Below are positions 21,305 through 24,648 of a stretch of DNA of 64,000 nt, piece after piece. Positions within the stretch are counted from its first letter, which is position 1. Each line of letters starts with the position of its first letter. The stretch is from Acidobacteriota bacterium (GTDB lineage: Bacteria > Acidobacteriota > Blastocatellia > Pyrinomonadales > Pyrinomonadaceae), in NCBI GenBank assembly GCA_025463135.1, contig JAOAPY010000045.1, forward strand, positions 1-64,000, given 5' to 3'. The position numbers were made by a program, and so were the translations under genes. Under the pieces are notes generated by a model. It made no database searches. It was given only the letters and a program-made list of their open reading frames with translations, and was not told the origin of the DNA.

Positions 21305-22756
21305 CTAATACTTCGGCACGGACGGATCCACTTCATTGGACCAGGCTGTAATCCCGCCCTTCAGATTTACCAGGTTGCCGGCAAACCCGGCTTGCTGCAA
21401 AGCTTCTATCGCTTTCGCGCTGCGCACACCGCCTTTGCAATGCATGATCGTTTCCCGCGCCGGATCGATCTCGTTCATGCGCGCCACAACCTGCCCGAGC
21501 GGGATTAAGGTGGTGCCGGGCAATCGCGCGATCTCGTACTCGTGCGGTTCGCGCACATCGATCACCTGAATATCATCACCGCGATCAAGCCGGCGTTTGA
21601 GTTCACTGGCCGTGATCTCAATGAGTTTTGGAGGCTCTGGTTGCTGGTTCGGAGACAGCCCGCAGAACTCTTCATAATCGATCAGCTCTTTGATAGTGGC
21701 GTGCTCACCGCACACCGGACAGTTTGGATCTTTGCGCAGCTTCAGCTCGCGAAACTTCATTTGCCAGGCATCAAACAACAACAGGCGGTTCACCAGTGTG
21801 TCTGGTGCGCCCAAAATGATCTTAATTGTTTCATTCGCCTGGATGGCGCCGACAATTCCCGGCAGGACACCCAACACTCCGCCCTCGGCGCACGACGGTA
21901 CCAGGCCGGGCGGCGGCGGTTCGGGATAGAGACAGCGATAGCACGCTCCGCGCTCAGCCCAAAACACACTCGCCTGTCCTTCAAAGCGAAATATAGAGCC
22001 GTACACATTTGGTTTGCCGCTGAGCACGCAGGCATCGTTGACCAAATAGCGCGTGGGAAAATTGTCCGTGCCATCAACAACAATGTCGTAGTTCCTGATT
22101 AACGCCAGCGCGTTGTCGCTGCTCAAGCGCGTTTCGTGCGTTTCGATATCGATGTGCGGATTGATATCGCTCAACCGATCACGCGCCGAATCAATCTTGC
22201 GCCTGCCGATGTCTTTCGTACCGTGAATTATTTGCCGCTGCAGATTCGAAGCGTCGACCACATCAAAATCAACAATGCCCAGACGCCCCACGCCTGCCGC
22301 TGCCAGGTACATTCCCAACGGTGCACCCAGACCACCCGTGCCGATCATCAGCACGCTCGCGGCTTTCAAACGCTGCTGACCCTTTAGTCCCACCTCCGGC
22401 ATGATCAGGTGCCGGCTATAACGCGCGATCTCTTCATTGGAAAGAGCGGGCAGGGCGGCCACGACTTCGGCTTCCGTGGTGGAACCTCCGGCTATTGAAG
22501 GAACAATCATCAGCGTGTCGCCTTGTTTGAGCGGAGTATCAGGGCCGGACTGATGGCGGATATCTTCGTCATTGACATATACGTTGACGAAGCTGCGCAA
22601 GGTGTTCTGGTCCGAATAAAGGTGGCGTCGCAATTCGCTGTATTCCGCCGTCAATTGATCAAGCGCCTCGCCGGCCGTCGTTGCTTCGACCTCGACGCGC
22701 GACTGGCCGCCGGTAAATTGGCGCAGTGCCGTGGGAACCGCGATGGTAATAGACAT
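21305..22756 (-). CDS. MoaD/ThiS sulfur carrier - ThiF/MoeB E1 - rhodanese fusion
   Basis: 483 residues from ATG 22756 (AAAGGAAAG upstream); an in-frame start at 22837 would add 27 unlikely residues. Residues 1-91 are a beta-grasp sulfur carrier ending SIAGG (G90-G91), but the chain continues. Residues ~105-360 are a ThiF/MoeB adenylyltransferase with GTGGLG at 139-144, zinc pairs C272/C275 and C346/C349 and candidate catalytic C289. Residues ~375-480 are a rhodanese with C440 in HCKGGVRS. In known systems the E1 adenylates the carrier's free C-terminal Gly-Gly and rhodanese supplies sulfur. Here the Gly-Gly is internal, so either a protease must cut after G91 or the domain only interacts in cis. 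The JAMM peptidase encoded 78 bp upstream is the obvious candidate. With cysM in the same unit, a CysO/MoeZ-type role in cysteine synthesis is the best fit; molybdopterin or thiamin work is less likely. Confidence 0.9.
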   Translation of the reverse strand: MSITIAVPTALRQFTGGQSRVEVEATTAGEALDQLTAEYSELRRHLYSDQNTLRSFVNVYVNDEDIRHQSGPDTPLKQGDTLMIVPSIAGGSTTEAEVVAALPALSNEEIARYSRHLIMPEVGLKGQQRLKAASVLMIGTGGLGAPLGMYLAAAGVGRLGIVDFDVVDASNLQRQIIHGTKDIGRRKIDSARDRLSDINPHIDIETHETRLSSDNALALIRNYDIVVDGTDNFPTRYLVNDACVLSGKPNVYGSIFRFEGQASVFWAERGACYRCLYPEPPPPGLVPSCAEGGVLGVLPGIVGAIQANETIKIILGAPDTLVNRLLLFDAWQMKFRELKLRKDPNCPVCGEHATIKELIDYEEFCGLSPNQQPEPPKLIEITASELKRRLDRGDDIQVIDVREPHEYEIARLPGTTLIPLGQVVARMNEIDPARETIMHCKGGVRSAKAIEALQQAGFAGNLVNLKGGITAWSNEVDPSVPKY

Positions 22757-22833
22757 GATTACTTTCCTTTCAAAGATGTGCGTTGTCACTTTCAGAGCAA
22801 GTGTATTCATAGCGTCGTGAGTACTTAACTGCC

Positions 22834-23262
22834 TCAACTCTTTCGGATTATTTCTTCCTCATTGAACCGCGACCGATCCGCTTCCATCTCCCACGAACGA
22901 AAGTCTTCCTGCTTACCGTCTCGTACCGCCACTACAATGTACGAGTAGGCAGGCCAGGCATGCTCGAGATCGTATTGTGACGGCACCGCGGGATGATCAG
23001 GATGCGAGTGGTAAAAGCCGACTATGTCAAGATTTCTTTTAAGCGCATATTGCTCACCTTGGAGCAATTCTTCGGGACGAATCAGAAAACGGTTGCGCTT
23101 AGCCGCTTCTTCACGCGCGTTCGATATCGGATATGTTTCAATAACCACTTTACCGTCGTGCTCGGAAAAGCGACCAATCAGCAGGCCGCAGCACTCATAA
23201 GGATAATCCCGCTCGCCGTGCGCGGCGATTTCTTCCTGATGATTTGCGCTGAGTTGAATCAT
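22834..23262 (-). CDS. M67 (JAMM/MPN+) metallopeptidase, Mec-like
   Basis: 142 residues from ATG 23262; a TTG start at 23277 would begin inside the adjacent palindromic element. It has a complete JAMM zinc site: E23, then H85-S-H87-P with S95 and D98 (H-x-H-x7-S-x2-D). In Mycobacterium, Mec of this family releases cysteine from the CysO-cysteine conjugate made by CysM. Being between cysM and a carrier-E1-rhodanese fusion supports that role here. It may also cut the carrier free of the fusion after its Gly-Gly, a deubiquitinase-like step known for some JAB proteins, but that part is inference. Confidence 0.88.
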   Translation of the reverse strand: MIQLSANHQEEIAAHGERDYPYECCGLLIGRFSEHDGKVVIETYPISNAREEAAKRNRFLIRPEELLQGEQYALKRNLDIVGFYHSHPDHPAVPSQYDLEHAWPAYSYIVVAVRDGKQEDFRSWEMEADRSRFNEEEIIRKS

Positions 23263-23269
23263 CTTATCG

Positions 23270-23378
23270 TTCGACAAACTTCAGTTTGTCGTCTGTTGCA
23301 CAGGCTGCCAACCAGCCGCGTAAAACTACAGGCTGGCAGCCTGTAGTACAGTTGACGACAAACTGAAGTTTGTCGAAC
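23270..23378. repeat. REPIN-like element, GTCCGACAAACTTCAGTTTG family, copy 2, with nested hairpin
   Basis: The outer arms are TTCGACAAACTTCAGTTTGT at the left and its complement at the right. The interior holds a second palindrome, ACAGGCTGCCAACCAGCC facing GGCTGGCAGCCTGT. It fills nearly the whole gap between cysM (stop 23382-23384, 3 nt away) and the JAMM gene (ATG 23262). It could affect relative expression of the two genes within the operon. Confidence 0.87.
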
Positions 23379-23381
23379 TCG

Positions 23382-24308
23382 CTAATCCGCATAGCGCTCG
23401 CCGCCATCGCACAAGATCGTGACGACCAGCGAATCACTCGACAGTGTTCGCGCCAATCGCAGCGCCGCAAAAACATTCGCTCCTGAACTGGGACCAACCA
23501 GCAGACCTTCATCTCGAGCCAGGCGCCGAACCATTTCCTGAGCGTCTTCGGTGGCGACCTCTACCTGCTGGTCTGCCAGCGACGGATCGTAGATCCCCGG
23601 CACCATCGCGGTGGCCATGTGTTTCAATCCCTCGAGCCCATGTAAAGGCGATTCCGGCTGCATCGAGATGGCCTGAATGGCCGGCTTCATTTCTTTCAGC
23701 CTGCGCGTCGTTCCCACGAAGGTGCCTGAAGTTCCCAGGCCCGCAAGAAAGTGGGTGATGCGCCCCGCGGTTTGCTCCCAGATCTCGGGCGCAGTGCGTT
23801 CGTAATGAGCGCGCCAGTTAGCTTCGTTGTTGTATTGATCGGGATAGAAGTACTTGCTGTGGTTGTCCTGGAACAGTCCGCGAGCAATCAATTGCGCGCC
23901 GTCGGTGGACAAGAGCGGATCAGTCTCGATGATCTCGACACCAAAACTGCGCAGGATGTGCTTGCGCTGCCGGCTCGCATTTTGTGGCAGGCAAATGGTA
24001 ACCGGATAGCCGCGCGCGGCCCCCACCATCGCGTAGGCGATTCCGGTATTACCGCTGGTCGCATCAAGGATTGTCATACCGGGTCGCAGTTTCCCGTTCC
24101 GCTCACCCGCCAGAATCATCGCCAGCGCCGCCCGATCTTTGACGGAACCCCCGGGATTCAGATGCTCGGCCTTGGCGTAAACGGAAACGCCGGCGGCAAG
24201 ATCGCCGGCCACTCGACGCAGACGAATCAAGGGCGTGTGGCCAATGGCTGCTTCAACAGAATCAAAACGATCAAGCTTGAGCGGAAACTCCAGGACACTG
24301 GCGACCAT
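23382..24308 (-). CDS. cysM: cysteine synthase, CysM-type PLP enzyme
   Basis: 308 residues. The PLP lysine is K57 in PGGSVKDRA; TSGNTG at 84-89 and GTSGT near 192-196 bind substrate and the PLP phosphate. The central HGLEGLKHM region differs from CysK. The protein stops at GGERYAD, a little short of some CysM enzymes, and the palindromic element begins 3 nt after the stop. ATG 24308 has GAGG about 10 nt upstream. It makes cysteine from an activated serine and either sulfide or a thiocarboxylated carrier protein. The next two genes (JAMM peptidase and carrier-E1-rhodanese fusion) favour the carrier route, as for mycobacterial CysM. A Cys-codon-rich leader and terminator precede it. Confidence 0.9.
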   Translation of the reverse strand: MVASVLEFPLKLDRFDSVEAAIGHTPLIRLRRVAGDLAAGVSVYAKAEHLNPGGSVKDRAALAMILAGERNGKLRPGMTILDATSGNTGIAYAMVGAARGYPVTICLPQNASRQRKHILRSFGVEIIETDPLLSTDGAQLIARGLFQDNHSKYFYPDQYNNEANWRAHYERTAPEIWEQTAGRITHFLAGLGTSGTFVGTTRRLKEMKPAIQAISMQPESPLHGLEGLKHMATAMVPGIYDPSLADQQVEVATEDAQEMVRRLARDEGLLVGPSSGANVFAALRLARTLSSDSLVVTILCDGGERYAD

Positions 24309-24324
24309 AGTTCTTTTGCCTCGA

Positions 24325-24376
24325 CAATAAAATAAGAAGCCGGCCGCGAACCCTGGTTGGGTACTCGCGACCGGCT
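24325..24376 (-). terminator. intrinsic terminator / attenuator in front of cysM
   Basis: On the minus strand AGCCGGTCGCGA pairs with TCGCGGCCGGCT (12 pairs including one G-U), extended by CCC/GGG near the loop, and is followed by a T-rich tract TCTTATTTTATT. It lies between the leader ORF (stop 24399) and the cysM ATG (24308). An identical octamer GGTCGCGA occurs inside the leader ORF (24442-24449) and can pair with the terminator's 3' arm (24342-24349), giving a plausible antiterminator. Confidence 0.88.
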
Positions 24377-24398
24377 CTCGAAAACTTGCTGCGTTTGG

Positions 24399-24500
24399 CT
24401 AAGAAGAAACTTGCTCTTCACTCCCGCGGAAGCTTTCCCGATCGCGACCTGGACAACAGGCGCAATAGGTGCAACAGCAGCAGTGGTAAGCGTAATTCAT
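24399..24500 (-). CDS. poly-cysteine leader peptide (33 aa), attenuator ORF
   Basis: ATG 24500 to TAG 24399. The peptide starts MNYAYH, then CCCCTYCACC at residues 7-16, so seven of ten consecutive codons are Cys (TGC TGC TGT TGC, TGC, TGT TGT). The C-terminal half is hydrophilic and unremarkable. A near-consensus promoter puts transcription start ~15 nt upstream, leaving little room for a Shine-Dalgarno; none is visible, so translation may be nearly leaderless. The terminator 22 nt beyond the stop and cysM downstream make this a classical leader-peptide arrangement. Ribosome stalling at Cys codons under cysteine shortage would leave the leader octamer at 24442-24449 free to form the antiterminator. 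Poly-Cys leader ORFs acting as cysteine-responsive attenuators are known in mycobacteria. A small metal-binding peptide is the alternative. Confidence 0.88.
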   Translation of the reverse strand: MNYAYHCCCCTYCACCPGRDRESFRGSEEQVSS

Positions 24501-24521
24501 AGCTTGAAACTTGTGCGATTG

Positions 24522-24551
24522 ACTATAGGCAACGCGCAATTACGATGTCAA
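24522..24551 (-). promoter_or_regulatory. sigma70-type promoter of the cysM operon leader
   Basis: On the minus strand TTGACA (24551-24546), an 18-nt spacer and TATAGT (24527-24522). The predicted start is near 24515, about 15 nt before the leader ATG. It is the best promoter match noticed in the window. Confidence 0.82.
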
Positions 24552-24570
24552 GCCCCTGAGCCATGACGGT

Positions 24571-24648
24571 AGTGGGTCAGTTTCGCAGCAAATGTCCGAC
24601 AAACTTTAGTTTGTCGCAGCGTTACGACAAGCTAAAGCTCATCGGACT
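24571..24648. repeat. composite palindrome: GGTAGTGGGTCAG half-element plus GTCCGACAAACT copy 3
   Basis: GTAGTGGGTCAGTTTCGCAG leads into GTCCGACAAACTTTAGTTTG (24594 onward) and its facing arm ending CATCGGAC at 24648. The same combination appears in larger form at 36529-36727, so this looks like one half of that composite. It lies upstream of the cysM promoter. Confidence 0.75.

Follow-up and report, generated by a model that had tools for sequence, protein, structure and literature searches.

A probable trp-type attenuator with cysteine control codons upstream of cysM in an Acidobacteriota bacterium

Upstream of cysM in this soil bacterium lies a short reading frame crowded with cysteine codons and followed by a terminator, which raises the question of whether translation of the frame decides transcription of the gene and, if so, by what kind of switch. 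The locus was examined within the window (the whole stretch of 64,000 nucleotides), and the features described here are on its minus strand. A sequence-only reading had proposed a near-consensus promoter, a 33-codon open reading frame (ORF) with seven Cys in ten codons and a GC-rich terminator with a T-rich tail 16 nt 5' of cysM, and all three were confirmed; its assignment of the DNA to Acidobacteriota also held, the nearest named relatives being Pyrinomonadaceae or Blastocatellia. The sigma70-type promoter TTGACA-N18-TATAGT (24522–24551) matches the consensus at 11 of 12 positions, with hexamers at 24551–24546 and 24527–24522 separated by an 18-nt spacer, and transcription is predicted to start at about 24515. 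Just 5' of the promoter lies a partly palindromic 80-bp interspersed repeat (24568–24647) with more than 60 matches in the same genome. The leader ORF (24399–24500) runs from an ATG at 24500 to a TAG at 24399 and encodes the 33-residue peptide MNYAYHCCCCTYCACCPGRDRESFRGSEEQVSS, in which the Cys residues that would serve as control codons occupy positions 7–10, 13, 15 and 16. The ORF list also has a longer frame opening with TTG (24539), but this one begins 5' of the −10 box, which makes the ATG at 24500 likely to be the true start. The ORF lacks a clear Shine-Dalgarno sequence, and its peptide gave no match in NCBIfam or Pfam. In groups A, B and J, most leaders have the same promoter hexamers (11/12, spacer 17–18) 5' of their ORF. 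In two related leaders (L025 and L029) the ORF starts 9–10 nt past the −10 hexamer, so that these transcripts may be leaderless.

The intrinsic terminator (24324–24377, −30.7 kcal/mol) consists of a hairpin at 24377–24337 and the U-rich tail CTTATTTTATTGT. Its arms GCCGGTCGCGA (24375–24365) and TCGCGGCCGGC (24349–24339) form 11 bp including one G-U pair, with an inner ACCC/GGGT extension; a simple terminator scan missed the hairpin because the scan's loop limit is 8 nt. The leader ORF ends 90 nt upstream of the cysM ATG at 24308. Folding of the whole leader gave −79.2 kcal/mol (z = −3.9 against shuffles), and four pairing regions could be assigned. Region 1 (24457–24469), inside the Cys codons, pairs in the minimum-energy fold with partners within 24451–24437, forming a 1:2 protector hairpin with region 2 that the sequence-only reading did not mention and that was seen in some relatives only, many being without it. 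Region 2, TCGCGATCGG (24447–24438), lies 5 nt past the last Cys codon and 23 nt past the CCCC run; it can form a 10-bp helix, in the classical 2:3 topology, with region 3, CCGGTCGCGA (24374–24365), which also belongs to the terminator 5' arm. Region 4 (24339–24349) is the terminator 3' arm. When region 2 was shuffled in the window leader alone, the 2:3 helix had p = 0.006.

Which of the two terminator arms is taken by the antiterminator was a point on which the sequence-only reading had to be revised. It had noted the octamer GGTCGCGA at 24449–24442 and again at 24372–24365, with TCGCGGCC at 24349–24342, all of which are present, and had taken pairing of the octamer with the 3' arm as the antiterminator. 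That pairing exists in the window (8 bp) but is not the conserved one, and it was rejected as the antiterminator: of 40 leaders, 37 have their best region 2 helix with the 5' arm and two with the 3' arm. TCGCGA being its own reverse complement, the 5' arm can pair instead with TCGCGATCGG, which overlaps the octamer. Octamer pairing with the 3' arm would also need displacement of a local hairpin already formed, whereas the 2:3 helix can form while the 3' arm is still to be made, the 5' arm coming first.

With these regions the leader is very probably a trp-type ribosome-mediated transcription attenuator that would sense charged tRNA-Cys and control cysM and, probably, the next two genes. In the trp, his and phe leader attenuators of Proteobacteria (such as E. 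coli trpL and pheL), control codons in a leader ORF are combined with mutually exclusive 1:2, 2:3 and 3:4 helices and a terminator with a U-tract. The present leader has clustered codons for the amino acid that the regulated gene's product makes, an intrinsic terminator between the leader ORF and the first gene (also in relatives), and an antiterminator that takes the terminator 5' arm and whose 5' strand lies just past the control codons. It differs from the Proteobacteria attenuators in amino acid and gene, and in its weakly conserved 1:2 hairpin. We infer that transcription start, ribosome stalling, termination and read-through would follow one another in the cell as follows. RNA polymerase would make the leader with a ribosome trailing on the 33-codon ORF. 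With ample Cys-tRNA the ribosome would pass the Cys codons and cover region 2 during synthesis of region 3, leaving region 3 to pair with region 4, so that the terminator would form and transcription stop near 24326. With scarce Cys-tRNA it would stall at the first Cys codons (24482–24471), about 23 nt 5' of region 2, and the free region 2 would pair with region 3 over 10 bp ahead of the synthesis of region 4, so that no terminator would form and cysM would be transcribed. If the ORF were not translated, region 2 would be hidden in the 1:2 hairpin and termination would once more be favoured.

The gene under this putative control (cysM, 23382–24308) encodes a PLP-dependent enzyme that scores with cysteine synthases. 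Two genes that are probably co-transcribed with it encode a JAB/Mec-like metalloprotease (22834–23277; PF14464) and a ThiS(CysO-like)-MoeB/ThiF-rhodanese fusion (21305–22837; PF02597, PF00899, PF00581). Such genes are the parts of the CysO-type cysteine pathway known from Mycobacterium tuberculosis, and the pair behind cysM (21305–23277) points to an apparent pathway of this type in which a single protein combines the carrier with the activating enzyme. In the bacterium's own genome (6.48 Mb, 56 contigs) neither PAPS reductase (PF01507) nor sulfite/nitrite reductase (PF01077) had a match, and the corresponding way of assimilating sulfate therefore seems to be missing; a leader placed before the apparent CysO-type pathway may therefore govern the organism's sulfur intake. 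Poly-Cys runs elsewhere in this genome were mostly overlapping runs in other frames, with no leader demonstrated among them.

The conservation of the leader was assessed with cysM homologues from 145 related genomes and the named contigs, duplicates being removed and the 400 nt upstream being scored for sense ORFs no longer than 60 codons in which four or more Cys fall within ten codons. Such an ORF preceded cysM at 33 of 144 loci, compared with 1/144 on the reverse strand and 10/1440 in dinucleotide shuffles, and in Pyrinomonadaceae at 21 of 43 scored cysM orthologues. About half of the orthologues in the family have no clear Cys run, that of Pyrinomonas methylaliphatogenes among them. The Cys-rich stretch persists in the eight nearest leaders, with Cys codons switching between TGC and TGT and gaps comprising whole codons, which is the mark of a translated frame. 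Terminators of unrelated sequence follow the ORF in the well-formed groups, and the design turns up again in other families and in Rhodothermota, where the arms have unrelated sequences. Roseithermus sacchariphilus (L159), a sequenced isolate, is among the relatives with such a leader. The anatomy of the window leader is thus far above chance. Relatives had been expected to keep both the Cys run and the paired stems; this was borne out for the Cys run and for the 2:3 helix with the 5' arm, and not for the pairing of the octamer with the 3' arm. In genus g3, three leaders before cysM (L033, L040 and L045) carry Tyr/Trp runs and few Cys (MYYYYYWCACTFAFP...) and look like hybrids between Tyr/Phe and Cys leaders.

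In the nearest group, strong conservation of the arms leaves little compensatory change to be seen. Between groups they differ, as shown by GCGACCG/CGGTCGC in group B, TCCGGCGGTGG/CCACTGCCGGA in family f7 and CTGATAGTGGG/CCCACTATCAG in family f4, and region 2 and arm partners were exchanged between groups in a swap test comparing permuted with own matches. Permuted partners did as well as or better than the own ones in none of 20000 permutations with 14 groups, in 14 of 20000 with nine stricter groups and, by duplex energy, in 1 of 10000. When the bare terminator arm was used for swapping, the result for group C was weaker, since the antiterminator of that group extends upstream of the stem. 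Taken singly, 19 of 40 leaders had a 2:3 helix with p ≤ 0.05 against shuffles and 21 had p > 0.05, so that the claim for this helix rests on the whole set. In a simple folding model from which arm 4 was still absent, arm 3 paired upstream with a mean probability of 0.63 when the ribosome was stalled at the Cys codons and 0.31 when it stood at the stop codon; a shuffled region 2 still gave 0.53 in the stalled simulation, against about 0.64 for the own sequence, so the model by itself is weak evidence. That the terminator is constitutive or the Cys ORF a chance occurrence, with no regulation, would agree with the many relatives that lack the leader, but the excess over shuffles and reverse strand, the swap test and the recurrence of such leaders before sulfite reductase genes make this a very improbable account.

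Poly-Cys leader ORFs before cysteine genes are also known from actinobacteria, where Cys leaders without terminators were described in Mycobacterium, Propionibacterium acnes and Bifidobacterium (PMC1262725), and a passage in PMC13236596 cites the mycobacterial cysteine genes as subject to translation attenuation (Canestrari et al. 2020). The Cys ORF of the window could in the same way govern how cysM is translated, through coupling or by hiding its ribosome site, with the hairpin incidental. Some relatives have an arrangement that looks like this design: in family f6 (L067, L073 and L076; also L078) the Cys ORF abuts or overlaps the cysM start and no terminator is present, which brings L067, L073 and L076 closer to the mycobacterial polycysteine uORFs. 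Those uORFs have no conserved terminators, their control is described as translational or possibly Rho-dependent, and the design entails an ORF coupled to the start of the next gene. In the window, by contrast, a strong terminator with its U-tract lies in the 90 nt between ORF and cysM, the ribosome site of cysM is downstream of the terminator stem and outside it, and in most leaders region 2 pairs with the terminator arm. A translational switch is therefore unlikely for this locus, and transcription attenuation is preferred.

The closest precedent for a Cys attenuator with a terminator is uORFC-8-2, predicted before cysS in Rhodobacterales, for which ribosome-mediated attenuation by charged tRNA-Cys was proposed (PMC8632094). 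Both leaders have a short ORF with tandem Cys codons, a hairpin containing those codons and an intrinsic terminator. They differ in that uORFC-8-2 has two Cys codons and precedes a cysteinyl-tRNA synthetase gene in Alphaproteobacteria, whereas the present leader has seven, precedes cysM in Acidobacteriota and has relatives before sulfite reductase genes too. A cmscan against Rfam (E ≤ 5) returned weak, unrelated matches only, with no family above threshold, riboswitches and T-boxes included. No earlier Cys attenuator for cysM, for sulfite reductase or for Acidobacteriota was found in the openly accessible literature, predictions in subscription journals being possible; the statement that none is described for the phylum thus agrees with the searchable papers, with the qualification that one with a terminator was predicted elsewhere. 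The switch type is known, and it is for the sensed amino acid, the gene and the phylum that no earlier description was found. Almost no Acidobacteria attenuators have assigned functions (PMC2965389), and for one of them the window leader would provide a proposed function, the signal that it senses and a switch open to testing, with support from several families. Cysteine biosynthesis genes would thereby join the trp-type repertoire.

The leaders before other genes bear on what the ribosome reads. Sulfite reductase genes of bacteria in the same class are likewise preceded by Cys leaders (MCCCCPAKSKGNRLPAS..., MCCCCKAKAKWNWSP... and MCMC-type in family f7), and most of these have a terminator behind them with a 5' arm that pairs with the post-Cys segment, as for CCGGTAGCGGGCCTC with GAGGCCCGCTATCGG; one sulfite reductase leader (G019) has the Cys run and terminator with no clear antiterminator. 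Cys-rich leaders, most with terminators, were noted before sulfite/nitrite reductase genes in Blastocatellia (L342, L351, L357–L360, L348, L350, L352 and L355). One other candidate, the "poly-Cys leader" of L331, was discarded as an out-of-frame reading of a coding gene, and a quick scan of cysS and cysE of relatives gave no clear Cys leaders and of PAPS reductase none. A covariance model built from eight cysM leaders, when searched for further Pyrinomonadaceae leaders, matched Phe/Tyr-rich leaders before type II chorismate mutase, including one with a terminator in the bacterium's own genome (L327 996–1175; G000:C31:127695–127874; MTITTHTLFYFAFTYRFFFNGESGPAKCGREVRKT). Relatives of this leader were seen at L304, L305, L310, L311, L317, L320, L324 and L328–L330. 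The model also matched a Tyr-run leader before an aromatic amino acid hydroxylase gene (L314 1501–1672, minus strand) and a leader with three Trp before trpD (L321 1501–1677, minus strand).

In every case the control codons of these sister leaders (Cys, Phe, Tyr or Trp) correspond to the pathway, a pattern that favours readout of charged tRNA over a metal-binding peptide. Short Cys-rich leader peptides responding to copper are known, Cys runs can bind metals, and the anatomy downstream would look identical if the peptide were a metal or thiol/redox sensor that arrested its own ribosome. However, between groups only Cys density is kept, with spacing, neighbouring residues and C-terminus varying, as expected of codon counting and not of a binding site or arrest peptide, and the targets are cysteine and sulfite-assimilation genes. 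A sensor peptide is accordingly judged improbable, slightly more so than translational control, and readout of Cys-tRNA remains the preferred reading. The sister leaders form a natural set differing in the sensed amino acid. The covariance cross-hits have modest E-values, between about 1e-7 and 1e-2, and common descent is therefore likely for some of the leaders only. It is a tentative suggestion, held with less than even confidence, that Acidobacteriota have a cysteine regulon (cysM and sulfite reductase) on many trp-type attenuators, and that the Cys, Phe, Tyr and Trp attenuators of Pyrinomonadaceae are related and were retuned by replacement of control codons on a shared RNA scaffold. If so, hybrid-looking leaders before cysM in genus g3, such as MTPKYYYYWCACMGASPYGG, would be intermediates.
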